A DNA stretch of 64,000 bases from Tessaracoccus timonensis (lineage in GTDB: Bacteria > Actinomycetota > Actinomycetes > Propionibacteriales > Propionibacteriaceae), in the NCBI RefSeq assembly GCF_900343145.1, contig NZ_LT996886.1:1-64000 (forward strand), given 5' to 3'. This document shows positions 36,567 through 48,401 of this stretch, piece after piece. The first letter of the stretch is position 1. Each line of letters begins with the position of its first letter. The notes under the pieces were generated by a model that saw nothing but the letters and a program-made list of their open reading frames with translations, searched no databases and was not told the DNA's origin. The position numbers were made by a program, and so were the translations under genes.

Positions 36567-36705
36567 CTCTCGACCCTTCCAATGTGATTGACGTGCAGTT
36601 GTGCATTGCTGTGCTGCGTCCTGCCCCCTGGTCCCCGTCCGCCTGGCGACCTGACAACGGGGAAGAAAAGTCAGGGAGCCAGCCGGACGAGCACCGGGGA
36701 GCAGG

Positions 36706-37137
36706 TCACGGCGGTGGAGGCATGAATTCCTCATCGAGCTCGGAGAAGCCAGCCTCGCTGGCCTCGGAGTACTCGGCCCAGCGCTCGGCGTCCCAGATCT
36801 CGGCGCGGGTACCGGCGCCGATCACGACGACGTCGCGGTGGAGCCCGGCGTAGTTGCGCAGAACCTGCGGAATGGTGACCCGCCCCTGCTTGTCGGGGAT
36901 TTCGAAGCTCGCGCCAGCGGCGAGCATGCGCTGGTAGTCGCGCACCTGCTTCACCGTCGTCGGAGCCGACGAGACCGGTTCCATCAACTGCTCGAAGGCC
37001 CGAGCGGTGTAGACGGCCAGCGCGTGCTCTTGCGTTCGGGTGACGACGCAGCCATCGGCGAAGTCGTCGCGGAACTTCGCGGGCAGGATGAGGCGCCCTT
37101 TCTCGTCGAGCTTCGGCGTGTACGTACCGAGGAACAT
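36706..37137 (-). CDS. mraZ: Transcriptional regulator MraZ
   Basis: Protein of 143 residues with two SpoVT-AbrB/MraZ repeats: MFLGTYTPKLDEKGRLILPA at the N-terminus and FEIPDKQGRVTIPQVLR in the second half. MraZ binds short direct repeats in front of its own operon and tunes division and cell-wall gene expression. The matching repeats are present at 37171-37200. A longer in-frame ATG exists upstream, but ATG at 37137 starts the family's conserved sequence. Confidence 0.95.
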   Translation of the reverse strand: MFLGTYTPKLDEKGRLILPAKFRDDFADGCVVTRTQEHALAVYTARAFEQLMEPVSSAPTTVKQVRDYQRMLAAGASFEIPDKQGRVTIPQVLRNYAGLHRDVVVIGAGTRAEIWDAERWAEYSEASEAGFSELDEEFMPPPP

Positions 37138-42187: not shown

Positions 42188-43339
42188 TCATCTGGCAAGC
42201 CTGGCTCGACGCACGGCGTTCGGCCCGAACCGGAGCGCGAGCTTGTCGATGGCAGCCTCAGCGTCGCGCCACCCGTGTTCTGGTTCGTCCAGTGCCGGCT
42301 GTTCGTAGGCCGTTTCGTTCGGTATGAGCTTGCCCACTCGCACACCCACCCGCCGGATGCGTGCCCGCTGCAGATGCAGGCGTCGAAAGAGCCGCATGGC
42401 TTCAGCGAAGATGGCGTTGGTGGCGTCCGTCGGAGGAATGGAACCCGTGCGGGTTACCGTCTGGAAGTCTGCAAACCGCACCGACAGCGTGATCTGACCG
42501 CCCACCATGTGTTGCGCTCGCATTCTCGACGCGGTGCGCTCGGCCATGCGCAAGATTTCCGTCTCGACAGCGAGCTCGTCGTCGGTGTCGAACGGGAAGG
42601 TCTCTTGCGCACCAACGCTGCGTTCTTCTGGCTCGCGCGCGATAACGGCGCGTTTGTCGTAGCCCCACGCTAAATCGAGGAGTTGTGCCCCTTGCGAGCC
42701 CAACGCCCGCTGCAGCGTCTGGCGTTTCGTCATGGCGACATCGCGGATGGTGACGAGGCCGAGCTGGTGGAGTTTGCTCGCCGTCGCTTCCCCCACGCCC
42801 CAGATGGCTTCCACCGGAAGCGGGTGCAGGAAGCTCACGACCTCGTTCGGCTGCACCGCCAGCAACCCGTCGGGTTTGGCTTGCTTGGACGCGAGTTTAG
42901 CGACGAATTTGTTGGGCCCGATGCCCACCGAGCAAGGCACGCGCTGCTCGTCCATCACCTGCGCGCGAATGCGCTCCCCCACCGCGACAGGGTTACCGCC
43001 CAGCCGGCGCATCGCCATCGTGAGGTCGAGGAAGGCCTCGTCGATGGAGGCCATCTCCATGCGGTCGGTGATTGTGCAGAAGATCTCTTTGATGCCGTTG
43101 GATACCTGCTCGTAGCGGTCGAAATCGGGCGGAACCACGTGGGCTGCCGGGCACAAGCGCCTAGCTCTGCTCGTCGGCATACCTGCACCAATGCCGTAGG
43201 CCCGGGCGGGATAGTTAGCCGAGAGCACCACGCCGCGCCCGTCGCCTCCGACGAACATCGGCACCGCCGCCAGCTCTGGACGGCGCGCGATCTCTACCGA
43301 CGCGTAGAAGGCATCCATGTCGATATGTGCGATGATCAT
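42188..43339 (-). CDS. dinB: DNA polymerase IV (DinB-type Y-family polymerase)
   Basis: Protein of 383 residues. The catalytic acids are intact: Asp7 and Asp9 in HIDMDAFYASVE, and Asp100-Glu101 in SIDEAFLD. A helix-hairpin-helix region (PVEAIWGVGEATASKLHQLG) and a little-finger domain follow. It therefore looks like an active translesion polymerase, not the inactive ImuB that accompanies DnaE2 elsewhere. Its ATG overlaps the dnaE2 stop by four bases, so the two are co-expressed. Confidence 0.93.
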   Translation of the reverse strand: MIIAHIDMDAFYASVEIARRPELAAVPMFVGGDGRGVVLSANYPARAYGIGAGMPTSRARRLCPAAHVVPPDFDRYEQVSNGIKEIFCTITDRMEMASIDEAFLDLTMAMRRLGGNPVAVGERIRAQVMDEQRVPCSVGIGPNKFVAKLASKQAKPDGLLAVQPNEVVSFLHPLPVEAIWGVGEATASKLHQLGLVTIRDVAMTKRQTLQRALGSQGAQLLDLAWGYDKRAVIAREPEERSVGAQETFPFDTDDELAVETEILRMAERTASRMRAQHMVGGQITLSVRFADFQTVTRTGSIPPTDATNAIFAEAMRLFRRLHLQRARIRRVGVRVGKLIPNETAYEQPALDEPEHGWRDAEAAIDKLALRFGPNAVRRARLAR

Positions 43340-46300
43340 CGGCCGATGCTCCCTGGGCTGGAGTGCCAGAGTTTGCGGGCTGTGCTCTGCTGCGGCGCGT
43401 GATAGCTGGCGGGCTCGGCGTCGATGATGCGCTGCACCGCGGCGACGGCTTCACCAGGATGGTGTGCGCGTTCGAGCGCATCGCGCCAGTGCGCGTAGAT
43501 ATGTTCCAAGCTCCATGCTCCCGTGGCGCGAAGCGAGACGCCGCTGCGCCCAGTGCGCCGGACGGTGCCACGCACCAACAACAGCCAAGAGTTGAACACC
43601 GTCGTGGAATACGGGCCCTGCACGTCTTCGAAGAACGTGGCATCGCTCACGCCGGTGGAGTCGTCGAGGGAGAGGAACACCACCCTGCGCCCCGAGCGAA
43701 CCGGGGGCGTCTGCGTGGCCACCTTCACCCCTGCCACCAGCACTTCCGCGCCTTGCCGTTGGCGGCCAAGGAGCTGTGCAGGTGTGACGCTGAGCGCGCG
43801 CAGCAAGGGCAGGTATCGCGTGATCACGTGACTGCTCGCGTCCAGACCGAGCACCTCCAGCTCGGCCCGAATGCGCTCGTCAGGCCCCATTTCAGGCAGG
43901 CCCGTGGGTGTGACGTCGAGGCAGTCGGATTCTGTGAACGTGAAGGCGTCCTGACCTTCCAACTGCTTGCCCGTGCCTGCATGGAGGTCGGCGATGGTGA
44001 GCAGCACATCGCGCCGGGTAACCTGAGCGTGGCTGCGCAGCTCGCCTGCGCACCCGATGCCGTAGAGCGAGTCGAACCCGCCGGCCAACGTGAGATGCTC
44101 AGCGGTGGTGCGGCTGGTGCGCGCGCGTTGCCAGAAATCGGTGACCGACGTGAACGGCTGGGCGTCCACGATGCGCGCCACCTCGTCGTCGGTGACGCCT
44201 GCCACGTCGGACAAGGAGAGCCGGATGCCCCAGCCGCCGTCGACGTGTTCGGCGCGGTAGCTGCCCGTGGATGTGTTGACGTCGAGGCTCAGCACCGCAA
44301 CCCCCATCTGCCGCGCTTCTTCGAGCAGCAGCCGTTTCGGGTACATGCCCGGATCGTGGGTGAGGATGCCGGCGAGAAAATGTGCCGGGTGGTGCCGCTT
44401 CAACCACGCTGATTGGTAGGTGGGCAGCGCAAATGCGGCGGCGTGTGCCTTGCAGAACCCAAACGAGGCGAACGACACCAGGACCTCCCACACGCGCTCG
44501 ATCACCTCGCTGGCGTATCCCCGCTCGCTTGCGCACCGCCGGACCCAGCGCTCTATCTCGTGTTGGTTGTTCCTATCCGCAAGTGCGCGACGGACCTCGT
44601 CGCCCTTCGCGAACGAGCACCCCGTGACGGCGGCGACGAGCCGGATGATCTGCTCGTGAAACACCACCACCCCGCACGTTTCTTCGAGGAACGGCTGGAA
44701 ATCGGCGTGGAGGAACTCCGGTGTGCGCAGGCCCTGGCGCGCGTCGACGAAGGGCGTAATCATGTCGGACTTCACCGGGCCGGGGCGGAAGAGGGAGATG
44801 TCGATCGCGATGTCGTCGAAACTGCGTATGTCGAATTTGCCGACGAGTTCTCGCTGCCCTGGCGACTCAATCTGGAAGCAGCCGAGCGTGCGGCGCTCGG
44901 CGATCATCTGGTACACCTCCTCATCGTCGAAGGGCTCGAGCGCGTCGATGTTGGGGGCGCTGCCCGTGGTGCGCTCGAGTTCATCGAGTGCGTACGCCAT
45001 CGCTGACTGCATGCGCACGCCCAGCACGTCGAGTTTCATCAGCCCCAGGTGCTCGACGTCATCTTTGTCGAACTGGCTCATGGGGTGCCCCTGAGCGCTG
45101 AGCTCGAGCGGAGTACGGGTGGCGAGGGTGGCGTCGGAGAGCACCACGCCGCAGGGGTGCAGCGCCACATGGCGCGGCAGCCCGTCGAGAGATTCCACCA
45201 GGGTGAACAACCGCTCGAGGCGCGCCTCCCCCATGCCGGCATTGCGGAGCTCGGGAAGCTCTCGGATGGCGGTGCGGGCATCGCGGGCCCGGATGCGCGG
45301 GAACGCTTTCGCCATGGCGTCGATCTCGCTCGGGGGAAGGCTGAGCGCTGCGCCGACGTCGCGTACAGCGTGCCGCACTCGGTAGGTTTCGAGCATTGCG
45401 ACGCAGGCCACCCGGGCGCTGCCGAAGCGCTTGAATATGCCGTCGTAGACCTCGGTGCGGCGCGCGGATTCGACGTCGAGATCGATATCTGGCAAGGCCC
45501 TTCGAAGTGGTGACAGGAAACGCTCCATGAGAAGGCCGTGCCGCATCGGGTCGACGCCGGAGATGCCGAGCGCGTAGTTGACGAGCGAGCCCGCGCCAGA
45601 GCCTCGGGCGGCGCAGCGAATGCCCATCTCGTTCACCATCTGCACCACGTCGGCGACCGTCAGGAAGTACGCATCGAAGCGAAGGCCCGCGATGGTTGCC
45701 AGCTCGTCGTCGAGCCGTGCCGCGGCGTCGGGGGTGACGACGCCGTACCGCGCGGCCAGGCCCGCCTCGCAGCGGGCGCGCAGTGCGCGAGGTGCGTCGT
45801 CGCGGGTAGTGCCGAGGGTTTCGAGCTCGGGCAGGCGAACCTCGCCGAGGCCGACGTCGTGACGCGGGCTGAGCGTGCAGCGCTCCGCGAGCGCCTCGGT
45901 GGCAGCGAGCAGCACTTCGGTGCTGGCCCCTGCGAGCCGAGCGACCTCGTCGACGGCGCGGCGCATCTCCTGTTTGCCCTTCAAGTAGCCCTCGGCGTTG
46001 ATGCGGTCGATGTTGCCGGCCCGCAGCGGCACACGTCGCCTGGCTGCGTCGAGCACGTCGCAGGTGGCGGCCTGCTCAGGACGCGCCATGCGCACCATGT
46101 TCGTCGCGACGACGGGCACCCCCGCCTGCTGCGCGGCGCGCACGAGCCCCGCGGCCTGGTGTGCAGACGCGACGCCTCGGCCAGGCGTGTGATGGTTCGT
46201 CATCGCGACGGTGAGCCCGCCTGCCAGCGCATCGCGCCAGCGCCGGATTTCGTTGACGGCGCCGTCGAACCGAGCGTCGAGCAGCAGCCTCCCGACTGGG

Positions 46301-46740
46301 GAATCAGCGCCAAGCCCGACGATCACGTCGCCGCCTGCTGCGTGCTCGGCAATGCGTTCTAGGGTGACCCGTGGGGTGCCACGACCCGCAGCGTGCGCGG
46401 CACTGATGAGCGCACACAGTTGCCCCCATCCGGCTCGCGAGGTGGCCCACAGCGTGACCCGAGGGAGACGATGGTCGCGGAGCGCCCCGCCCTTCACCGC
46501 AGCGGGGCGGCGCACGGGAACCCAGCCGTCGGGAACCACAGAGAGGCTTGCCCCGATGATGGGCGCAACCCCCACTTGTGAGCACGCGTTCGCGAAGCGA
46601 ACAGCGCCGTAGAGGCCGTCGCGGTCGGTGAGCCCAACGCGCGTCATGCCAAGCTCGGCAGCCCGCGTGACGAGCTCGTCGGGGTGTGAGGCCCCGTACT
46701 GCATCGAGTAGCTGGAGCAGGCTTCAAGGTGGGTGAACAC
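43336..46740 (-). CDS. dnaE2: Error-prone DNA polymerase III alpha subunit DnaE2
   Basis: Protein of 1134 residues, C-family polymerase. The PHP domain occupies the first 250 residues, beginning FTHLEACSSYSMQYGASHPDE. The catalytic acids lie in LPDIDLDVESARR, and a C-terminal OB-type domain is present. In other actinobacteria DnaE2 performs damage-induced mutagenesis with partner proteins. The GTG at 46740 has GGAGG in front and follows the upstream gene's stop by one base, which sets the start. Confidence 0.94.
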   Translation of the reverse strand: MFTHLEACSSYSMQYGASHPDELVTRAAELGMTRVGLTDRDGLYGAVRFANACSQVGVAPIIGASLSVVPDGWVPVRRPAAVKGGALRDHRLPRVTLWATSRAGWGQLCALISAAHAAGRGTPRVTLERIAEHAAGGDVIVGLGADSPVGRLLLDARFDGAVNEIRRWRDALAGGLTVAMTNHHTPGRGVASAHQAAGLVRAAQQAGVPVVATNMVRMARPEQAATCDVLDAARRRVPLRAGNIDRINAEGYLKGKQEMRRAVDEVARLAGASTEVLLAATEALAERCTLSPRHDVGLGEVRLPELETLGTTRDDAPRALRARCEAGLAARYGVVTPDAAARLDDELATIAGLRFDAYFLTVADVVQMVNEMGIRCAARGSGAGSLVNYALGISGVDPMRHGLLMERFLSPLRRALPDIDLDVESARRTEVYDGIFKRFGSARVACVAMLETYRVRHAVRDVGAALSLPPSEIDAMAKAFPRIRARDARTAIRELPELRNAGMGEARLERLFTLVESLDGLPRHVALHPCGVVLSDATLATRTPLELSAQGHPMSQFDKDDVEHLGLMKLDVLGVRMQSAMAYALDELERTTGSAPNIDALEPFDDEEVYQMIAERRTLGCFQIESPGQRELVGKFDIRSFDDIAIDISLFRPGPVKSDMITPFVDARQGLRTPEFLHADFQPFLEETCGVVVFHEQIIRLVAAVTGCSFAKGDEVRRALADRNNQHEIERWVRRCASERGYASEVIERVWEVLVSFASFGFCKAHAAAFALPTYQSAWLKRHHPAHFLAGILTHDPGMYPKRLLLEEARQMGVAVLSLDVNTSTGSYRAEHVDGGWGIRLSLSDVAGVTDDEVARIVDAQPFTSVTDFWQRARTSRTTAEHLTLAGGFDSLYGIGCAGELRSHAQVTRRDVLLTIADLHAGTGKQLEGQDAFTFTESDCLDVTPTGLPEMGPDERIRAELEVLGLDASSHVITRYLPLLRALSVTPAQLLGRQRQGAEVLVAGVKVATQTPPVRSGRRVVFLSLDDSTGVSDATFFEDVQGPYSTTVFNSWLLLVRGTVRRTGRSGVSLRATGAWSLEHIYAHWRDALERAHHPGEAVAAVQRIIDAEPASYHAPQQSTARKLWHSSPGSIGR

Positions 46741-46741
46741 G

Positions 46742-47008
46742 CTAATCCTCCACGCCCTGCAGCTGCCAGTCGTCGTTTCCGACGATGCGGGCAAGCTCGT
46801 AGACACCGCGCCAGGCGTGCCCGCTCTCGGCTTCGACGCGCCACACCTCGCGCTCTTCGACGCCTGGTGCCGCAGGGTTTCGCCACCACGGAGACGATTC
46901 TCTCGTGAGGGTCTGCACGGTGAGCACACGCAGCAGACGCCCGCGCCAGACGAACTGGGTTGGAACGTCGCGAAACTGTACGGTGACGGGTTCTTGATAG
47001 ATACGCAT
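46742..47008 (-). CDS. DUF6504-like small protein of the translesion cassette
   Basis: Protein of 88 residues, beginning MRIYQEPVTVQFRDVP, rich in Arg and Trp (RWRGR-like and WWRNP segments, WRGVYELAR). It resembles the small protein commonly found before dnaE2 in actinobacteria. It is likely part of the translesion response but has no known activity. ATG at 47008 has GGAAGG in front; an open frame continues 220 bases upstream through the structured leader, which argues against the longer form. Confidence 0.8.
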   Translation of the reverse strand: MRIYQEPVTVQFRDVPTQFVWRGRLLRVLTVQTLTRESSPWWRNPAAPGVEEREVWRVEAESGHAWRGVYELARIVGNDDWQLQGVED

Positions 47009-47040
47009 GGCAGCCTTCCGGGGAACGTTCGATTGTGTTG

Positions 47041-47094
47041 CTCGACCCGGGAACCTCGGCCGGCTGCAGGGGTCGAGTCTGCAACCGGCCGAGG
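47041..47094 (-). promoter_or_regulatory. Leader hairpin with potential pseudoknot before the translesion cassette
   Basis: On the minus strand, CCTCGGCCGGTTGCAG (47094-47079) pairs with CTGCAGCCGGCCGAGG (47069-47054): sixteen pairs including one G-U. The nine-base loop ACTCGACCC contains CTCGACCC, which is fully complementary to GGGTCGAG at 47048-47041, five bases after the stem. This is the geometry of an H-type pseudoknot. It lies in the roughly 148-base leader between the inferred transcription start and the DUF6504 gene. It may control elongation or translation. No known riboswitch is recognised. Confidence 0.6.
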
Positions 47095-47139
47095 TGGCCC
47101 ACACCGGTGAGCGCTCGACTAGAGCTTCCCCAAGGTAAT

Positions 47140-47153
47140 CGAACGCCTGTCCG
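47140..47153 (-). promoter_or_regulatory. LexA-like box of the translesion promoter
   Basis: CGGACAGGCGTTCG differs from the Gram-positive/actinobacterial SOS consensus CGAACRNRYGTTYG at one position. It begins about 4 bases downstream of the predicted start point of the promoter at 47163-47185, a place where a repressor would block transcription. LexA binding is inferred from the match. Confidence 0.55.
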
Positions 47154-47162
47154 GTATGAATA

Positions 47163-47185
47163 ACTATAAGCGCCCCCTCTGACAA
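47163..47185 (-). promoter_or_regulatory. PafBC-type DNA-damage promoter of the translesion cassette
   Basis: On the minus strand TTGTCAGAG is followed by eight bases and TATAGT. The RecA-independent damage promoter described in mycobacteria and shown to depend on PafBC is TTGTCRGTG-N8-TANNNT, so eight of nine positions, the spacer and the -10 agree. A TTGACG at 47189-47194 lies too far upstream (20-base spacer) to be a normal -35. Genes for PafB and PafC are in this window. Confidence 0.65.
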
Positions 47186-47263
47186 TTCGTCAACCCCCAG
47201 TGTTTCCCCTTGCCAGCCGGCTCTGAGCACACTTCAGCTCGCGCGTTCAAGAGCATTCGCGCA

Positions 47264-47269
47264 TAGACT
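47264..47269 (+). promoter_or_regulatory. -10 element of the gene at 47277
   Basis: TAGACT fits TANNNT and lies seven bases before the ATG at 47277, with no ribosome-binding site between, so the message is probably leaderless. Confidence 0.45.
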
Positions 47270-47276
47270 GCCGAGC

Positions 47277-48401
47277 ATGATCATCGTCGAGGGAAGCACG
47301 CTGGCAGGGATGGCCGTCGCGGCCCGCCTGGCCAGGCTTGGGCACGACATGGTGCTCTCCGGCGACGACGCCCCGCAAGCGCCGCTCGACCACTTCGAGC
47401 TTCCCGCCGCGTGGCGTGATCTCTTCAAGAAAACCGGGCGTCCGCTCGTCGGGTCGCTCGGCTCGCTCGGGCTCTCGCTCGCGCCGGCCCCGCCGGTGAC
47501 GTATCTCCTCCCCTGCGGCACCGAGCTGGTGCTGCCCGACGAGCGTGGCGGCCAGTACTACGCCATCCGCGACGCACTCGGCCAAGCCCAGGCTGAGCGC
47601 TGGCGCGATCTCGTCGACGAACTCGACGACGTGTGGGCCGCGCTGCGCCGCTTCGGCGTCGAAGCCGCAGACACCCCCGCCAGCGCCGACGACCGTCGAG
47701 CGCTCTGGCTACACCGCACGCTGGCAGACGTTGCAGACCGCGCCGGGAAGATGGCGCCGATCATCCTCGCAGAAGCTCACTTCGCAGGCACCGATTCACA
47801 CAAGGCGCCGGCGCTTGTCGCGGTACGGCAATCCATCGTGCGCATCTTCGGGCGCCACCGCCTCGTCGACGAACAGGGCCGCACGGCAGACGCGTCGGCC
47901 CTCATCTCGTTGCTGGAACGCCGCCTCACCGAACGATTCGTCCGACGAAGCCCCGCACCGCCCGGCGGGGTCACCGTCGACGTACGGCCAGCACTGCCCC
48001 AAGGCCGCTGGCGCCGACCCCGCCCCGCGCTCACCCCCGCCGCCCAGCCCGCGGAACCCGGTGCGGCGGCGGAGATCGTCGACCTCACTGGGCCGGCCCC
48101 CATCCGCACTATCCGTGGCGAGCAGCGCGCCACGCGCCTCGACTACACGCAGGCCACACCCAACATCGACGCCGGCCTCGCGCCCGACGACGCCCGCCGC
48201 TGGCTGCACCGCCCCACCCCGAGCGCCCACCACGCCAGCGCGGCCTGCGTCGCCGGTGGCGCGCCGTGGGCAGAGCTGATGAGCGCAGCGCTCACCGTCT
48301 ACGCGCTGCACGAGGAACTCACGGGCGAAGACTGCCGCCCGACGAACCGTGCCTTCACCATGCCGCCTATTCGTCGCGAGGCTCCGGGTCACGACGCGTA
48401 A
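47277..48401 (+). CDS. Degenerate Rossmann-type (FAD/NAD oxidoreductase-like) protein
   Basis: Protein of 374 residues not recognised with confidence. The N-terminus (IIVEGSTLAGMAVAARL) has the spacing of an amine-oxidase/phytoene-desaturase dinucleotide-binding loop, but the GxGxxG glycines are replaced by GSTLAG, so cofactor binding is doubtful. The middle is Ala/Arg-rich and has no clear motif; the C-terminus has a YALHEELTGEDCRPTN helix. It is probably leaderless. It overlaps the convergent CcdA gene by 35 bases. The divergent neighbour is the translesion cassette, but no functional link is evident. Confidence 0.7.
   Translation: MIIVEGSTLAGMAVAARLARLGHDMVLSGDDAPQAPLDHFELPAAWRDLFKKTGRPLVGSLGSLGLSLAPAPPVTYLLPCGTELVLPDERGGQYYAIRDALGQAQAERWRDLVDELDDVWAALRRFGVEAADTPASADDRRALWLHRTLADVADRAGKMAPIILAEAHFAGTDSHKAPALVAVRQSIVRIFGRHRLVDEQGRTADASALISLLERRLTERFVRRSPAPPGGVTVDVRPALPQGRWRRPRPALTPAAQPAEPGAAAEIVDLTGPAPIRTIRGEQRATRLDYTQATPNIDAGLAPDDARRWLHRPTPSAHHASAACVAGGAPWAELMSAALTVYALHEELTGEDCRPTNRAFTMPPIRREAPGHDA

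Follow-up and report, generated by a model that had tools for sequence, protein, structure and literature searches.

Is the error-prone polymerase operon of Tessaracoccus timonensis preceded by a regulatory RNA and, if so, how would such an RNA act? SOS mutagenesis is seen mainly as a matter of transcriptional control, exerted by LexA, RecA and, in Actinobacteria, also PafBC. The original prediction for this locus placed a structured leader with a potential H-type pseudoknot, at 47041-47094, ahead of a DUF6504-dnaE2-dinB operon. The window, by which we mean the whole stretch of DNA analysed, comprises 64,000 nt (assembly GCF_900343145.1, contig NZ_LT996886.1, positions 1-64,000).

Operon and leader in the window

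The three genes of the operon lie on the minus strand: a DUF6504 gene at 46742-47008 (PF20114, Pfam E 3.5e-13), a dnaE2 gene of the error-prone polymerase III alpha type at 43336-46740 (assigned by Pfam, with a putative GTG start) and a dinB gene of the polymerase IV type at 42191-43339 (Pfam IMS E 6e-48). The DUF6504 stop codon lies one base ahead of the proposed dnaE2 start and the dnaE2 stop overlaps dinB by ATGA. In the surroundings, the adjoining divergent ORF of 374 aa (47277-48401, plus strand) had no Pfam match at E 0.001, and an mraW RNA (RF01746, scoring 50.6 for a gathering score of 50) is present at 36609-36712 on the minus strand.

The leader, of about 150 nt on the minus strand, runs from a putative PafBC/LexA-type promoter to DUF6504-dnaE2-dinB. 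Folded over 149 nt, it reaches -78.3 kcal/mol (z -5.35 relative to 200 dinucleotide shuffles, none of which was equally stable). The motif TTGTCAGAG-N8-TATAGT at 47185-47163, which has similar sites in the leaders of relatives, resembles what we take to be the PafBC promoter motif; we therefore place the probable transcript start, which would lie upstream of 47041, near 47156. A scan with the plain sigma-70 consensus gave no promoter at this site. The LexA-like operator CGGACAGGCGTTCG (47140-47153, minus strand) is one base away from CGAAC-N4-GTTCG, presumably the LexA operator consensus, and many relatives come nearer to it; judged by its sequence, the promoter thus carries the operator expected of a leader in the SOS (LexA) regulon.

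Three hairpins are predicted in the minus-strand transcript. P1 is formed by a 5' arm (ACCGG and GCGTTCGA, 47139-47155) and a 3' arm (TCGAGCGC and CCGGT, 47103-47118), both defined by fold and sequence; since the LexA operator is within the 5' arm, a single stretch would serve as DNA operator and as RNA stem. The P2 region (47124-47135) carries the motif GGGGAAG at 47125-47131 and forms, in the window copy, merely a three-pair hairpin, CUU-GGGG-AAG. P3 (47053-47095) has a 17-bp stem and the loop ACTCGACCC at 47070-47078. It is followed by a linker, UCCC at 47049-47052 (UUCCC with 47053), which resembles an anti-Shine-Dalgarno sequence, by the partner of the P3 loop, GGGUCGAG at 47041-47048, which may have an alternative partner near the Shine-Dalgarno sequence, and by UUCCCC and the Shine-Dalgarno sequence GGAAGG (47014-47019), together 47014-47025. 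No terminator-like site, that is, a hairpin followed by a U run, was found within 46950-47300, and we rejected an intrinsic terminator or attenuator.

The originally predicted hairpin is present, with small corrections: its arms (47079-47095 and 47053-47069) are 17 nt long, not 16, and 94% complementary with one G-U pair around a 9-nt loop. The claimed complementarity of the loop to eight downstream bases is exact, GGGTCGAG at 47041-47048 matching at 100%. That it exceeds chance also held: we scanned the window, on either strand, for stems of 16 or more pairs whose loop has an 8-nt complement in the 35 bases that follow, and only the P3 site was returned (in two adjacent registers); 10 mononucleotide shuffles of the window yielded five such stems, none with a loop complement. 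The structured element is larger than 47041-47094.

Conservation and distribution of the RNA

We searched 146 relatives with DnaE2 and inspected the DNA upstream of the returned loci. Twenty-one leaders are built alike, each having a PafBC-like promoter, a LexA box and hairpins as well as a Shine-Dalgarno context that is conserved; 19 of them were used to build the covariance model R1. For the tests of pairing, 70 oriented loci were reduced to 59 copies by removing five duplicates, the degenerate L081, L110 (judged a chance match) and then L061, L094, L099 and L104, each of which lacks one of the two loop motifs. These motifs are GGGGAAG in the P2 loop and UCGACCC within the 9- or 10-nt P3 loop; since they served in choosing the copies (with GGUUCGGAAG-like variants of the P2 motif accepted), it is partly by design that they do not vary among the 59.

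When arms were paired with their own partners or with swapped ones from other copies, all three stems matched better with their own (z -22.7 for P3, n=59; -12.1 for P1, n=52; -6.7 for P2, n=59; controls 0.4 and -0.9). P3 could be followed column by column in 36 of the 59 copies, the other 23 being unpaired in the fixed 9-nt-loop register; in these 36, the paired cells amount to 97%, compared with 69% in shuffled versions. Both tests cut the arms at the loop and are independent of A5, an alignment of 40 rows that was fitted to the model and is biased towards its structure. On A5, P3 shows compensated changes at 18 of its 20 pairs, 97.6% of cells paired and a covariation score of 0.622 (0.187 shuffled, at most 0.112 slid). 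A5 was used because MAFFT misplaced the arms in alignment A2, on which RNAalifold did not recover P3. All the leaders compared are related sequences and not independent of one another. UCGACCC is also placed in a hairpin more often upstream of dnaE2 (31 of 64 occurrences) than in coding sequence (13 of 103).

As these comparisons of sequence show, a conserved structured RNA sits in leaders of SOS-type translesion-polymerase operons. The predicted structured leader before DUF6504-dnaE2-dinB is thereby upheld: the RNA precedes the same operon in many relatives, and its stems, checked there for conservation and covariation, display both.

R1 matched 25 of 39 genomes of the genus and, at E 0.01, 73 of 198 genomes of the family, spread over 19 of its 29 genera. 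Within the genus, the leader occurs in 24 of the 29 genomes with dnaE2 and in none of the 10 without; this count leaves out the match in G033, which is weak (E 0.006) and located away from its dnaE2, takes the sole DnaE2-search match near 1e-101 to 1e-105 in three of the ten for housekeeping DnaE, and includes, among the five dnaE2 genomes without a credible match, G035, whose contig starts inside dnaE2 so that its leader cannot be judged. At least three leaders, inspected in full (L014, L017 and L173), belong to the same operon without the RNA. A second covariance model, R2, matched 97 of 391 genomes of the order (E 1e-4), 36 of 394 of the class (E 1e-3, including the likely chance matches L120, L124 and L150) and 2 of 396 in the phylum sample (E 1e-4), these two being the window itself and L120, a chance hairpin in our judgement. 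Of 80 named dnaE2 loci found by protein, 76 were usable; a LexA-like box lies upstream in 73 of the 76, a UCGACCC hairpin in 31, and box and hairpin 15-170 nt apart in 25. P3 is missing from about two thirds of named dnaE2 loci: the RNA is common in some lineages and not universal.

A DUF6504-type start, assigned by pattern, follows 48 of the 59 copies (the calls for L084 and L103 are probably wrong). The other copies examined precede HEPN_SAV_6107, methyltransferase or dinB genes, except for those before DUF4245 and ribosomal L21 genes; the RNA is thus placed ahead of the same genes, as expected of a cis-acting leader. Among the exceptions, L097 and L148 (genus g24) have the RNA with a LexA-like box before the ribosomal protein L21 gene (PF00829), in genomes where the DnaE2 search gave no match, and L092 (G053) is a copy without GGGTCGA upstream of a DUF4245 gene (PF14030). 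The degenerate L081 (G012:C107:5026-5158) is a second copy without LexA box, before an ORF that looks purD-like by eye.

Other actinomycete families have modular variants of the leader, recognised by their motifs. Beyond the family, GGGGAAG hairpins also favour their own arms (swapped-arm z -6.8, n=16, a set made of permuted leaders, family f20 and two others, of which L158 folds poorly). In the permuted loci, picked by eye in other families, CUUCCCC follows the GGGGAAG hairpin in six of seven; as background, 19 of the 133 GGGGAAG occurrences in the collected loci, true cases included, have CUUCCCC no more than 140 nt away.

The arrangements observed in these families can be briefly described. 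In L114, L129, L151, L153, L154, L159 and L160 the order is permuted, with the LexA box followed by the UCGACCC hairpin and then the GGGGAAG hairpin. In family f20 (L119, L122, L123, L128, L152, L155 and L156; genomes of 5.3-7.3 Mb), a LexA-like box is followed by a GGGGAAG-loop hairpin and a terminator-like hairpin, and no gene is apparent close by; this unit is perhaps a stand-alone damage-induced small RNA, and of the three in G628 two lie near opposite ends of the contig. A different leader type precedes this operon in Modestobacter, Geodermatophilus and Blastococcus (L188, L194, L200 and L202): CUUCCCC stands downstream of the LexA box and upstream of a GGGGAG-type Shine-Dalgarno sequence and, in L194 and L200, resembles a hairpin loop. 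A third recurring, loop-like motif, UUCGCGG, stands between LexA box and P3 in L112, L115, L127, L149, L185, L189, L219, L235 and L240. Finally, the UCGACCC hairpin is followed by three or four GGGTCGA copies in L117, L127, L219, L240 and L247; the copies are close together except in L219.

The strand downstream of P3 and its candidate partners

The motif GGGTCGA (GGGUCGA in RNA), which had no role in choosing the 59 copies, follows P3 in 45 of them and is missing from 14. The seven core pairs that it can form with the loop are invariant and therefore neither support nor oppose loop pairing. The eighth pair is C-G or U-A in 32 of the 45, U-G in 4 and unpaired in 9 (Fisher p 0.0036). We also asked, for the dnaE2 loci identified through their protein, whether GGGTCGA is present in the 330 nt that come after the LexA-like box: it is in 18 of 25 loci that have P3 and in 14 of 48 that do not (p 0.001). 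Four permuted motifs, pooled as a control, show no such difference (5 of 25 and 9 of 48).

H-type pseudoknots are formed when bases of a hairpin loop pair with the flank of the stem, and the leader is like them in that its loop is complementary to its own 3' flank. It differs in its stem, predicted at 15-24 pairs across copies, and often in the linker, 27 of the 45 copies having no spare base between GGGTCGA and the fully folded P3. With so long a stem and no spare base, the loop could pair only if the lower stem opened or a second molecule took part; on simple geometric grounds, the loop helix and a complete P3 probably exclude each other in one molecule. The proposed pseudoknot is accordingly retained in part: the match between loop and flank is kept in most copies, with a tendency to covary at the eighth pair, but formation of a pseudoknot on the intact, whole stem is doubtful.

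The same strand has a second candidate partner. The linker is UUCCC in the window and CUUCCC or CUCCC in many other copies; together with GGGUCGA it is complementary to the Shine-Dalgarno region, which in some copies includes CGACC or CGAUCC directly before it. Tested against swapped partners, the linker strand prefers its own Shine-Dalgarno region (z -3.5, p 0.0002, n=46/48; mid-spacer control z 0.4). With the loop pairing imposed, the Shine-Dalgarno sequence became more accessible in the computation, going from 0.29 to 0.37 (n=42, p 0.003). The rise exceeded 0.05 in 23 of the 42 leaders, while accessibility fell in 7 and stayed nearly the same in 12; that of a control block changed little. 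Accessibility was 0.26 in 46 leaders with the RNA and 0.46 in 16 without (p 0.0003), the latter all being shorter and two of them one locus (L015, L173); shuffling the RNA-bearing leader gave 0.32 against 0.26 for the native one (p 0.013). These computed effects are modest. Pairing of the P2 loop with the linker or the Shine-Dalgarno region was considered and rejected: complementarity goes beyond shuffles, without covariation (z 0.8 and 0.2).

A strand with two partners fits these results better than an H-type pseudoknot on an intact stem, and translational control through the 3' strand of the leader appears probable from the covariation and the models.

Explanations and meaning

We propose, with somewhat better than even confidence, that the leader represents a new family of structured RNAs that act in cis: driven by a LexA/PafBC-type promoter, it would govern how DUF6504-dnaE2-dinB is translated. 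The promoter would give a transcript carrying P1, P2, P3 and the 3' strand, made of the linker and GGGUCGA, for which there would be two alternative partners. Placed on the Shine-Dalgarno region, this strand would hide the DUF6504 start; placed on the P3 loop, with the lower part of P3 opened, it would leave that start freer. The dnaE2 and dinB genes would follow DUF6504 by translational coupling because the genes abut or overlap, and the junctions of the operon fit such coupling. Against this proposal stand the P2 loop without covariation, the copies lacking GGGTCGA (14/59) or an eighth pair (9/45), the operons without the RNA in L014, L017 and L173, and the RNA before the L21 gene in two genomes.

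No family of Rfam 15 accounts for the leader. At gathering scores, Rfam 15 found in the window only mraW and tRNA, both elsewhere; at E up to 5, four loci gave only sbcD (L012; opposite strand, 20 bits of the 40 needed) and sR30 (inside a gene, 16.4 of 38), neither credible; and at E up to 1, eight loci gave no match. The promoter type and gene content are those of the LexA/PafBC DNA-damage promoters of Actinobacteria, whose known control is transcriptional; the leader differs by the RNA-level control proposed here. In translational riboswitches, a folded domain and a 3' strand with competing partners act on a platform that sequesters the Shine-Dalgarno sequence. The leader is alike in its conserved upstream fold and in the competing 3' strand partners and Shine-Dalgarno target proposed for it, and differs in its position immediately downstream of a LexA operator that is also part of P1, and in having no known ligand and no credible Rfam 15 match. 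PafBC and RecA-NDp promoters have been described in the actinobacterial DNA-damage response (PMC6789036). Our literature search, which covered few subscription journals and included PMC6789036 and PMC11077062, turned up neither this leader nor RNA-level control of these operons.

The best-surviving alternative, a tentative one, is that a postulated protein, perhaps a product of the operon like DUF6504 or a HEPN protein, binds the invariant loops and represses or stabilises the message, with GGGUCGA as an additional site or helper. The motifs GGGGAAG and UCGACCC stay the same on stems that vary, as for recognised loops, UCGACCC is kept without GGGUCGA in genus g18 and some other copies, and most copies precede DUF6504 or HEPN genes; the covariation between linker and Shine-Dalgarno region is left unexplained by protein binding itself. 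Slightly more speculative still is an enlarged version of translational control, in which the leader would be a sensor that, once the SOS promoter has fired, licenses error-prone repair, and would be assembled from interchangeable hairpin modules with the loops GGGGAAG, UCGACCC, UUCGCGG and CUUCCCC in varying order across Actinomycetes; the GGGGAAG module would also exist as a stand-alone small RNA driven by a LexA box, and CUUCCCC anti-Shine-Dalgarno elements could be its targets in trans.

It is unlikely that the leader has no Shine-Dalgarno switch and works only through transcription pausing, Rho-dependent termination or RNA stability. Such a role would suit the strong GC-rich hairpins and the terminator-like hairpin behind GGGGAAG in family f20, but the window leader has no terminator-like site and the swapped-partner result at the Shine-Dalgarno region is not predicted. 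We give very little credit to the idea that the inverted TCGACCC/GGGTCGA are DNA operators of a further regulator, with an incidental hairpin: the 7-mer is invariant and GGGTCGA is tandem in some leaders, yet the P3 stem varies with compensation, needless for an operator, UCGACCC is enriched in hairpins upstream of dnaE2, and the distance between the 7-mer copies varies. Leader peptide, dispersed repeat and chance are effectively refuted by the P3 covariation and the unphased spacings: the DUF6504 frame is open upstream to 47230 in the window genome, but the motifs are spaced without regard to phase, all three being represented, and any one frame stays open in just 20-23 of 48 leaders, and a REP or MITE is rejected with one match in the window's genome.

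The folded RNA resembles a switch and could be a second lock on damage-induced mutation. If the proposed translational control is true, an RNA switch in the same transcript would add a second, post-initiation control on the making of error-prone polymerases. The leader offers defined compensatory mutations, so that the switch idea is directly testable, and the signal of the switch would reveal what the cell checks before mutating.
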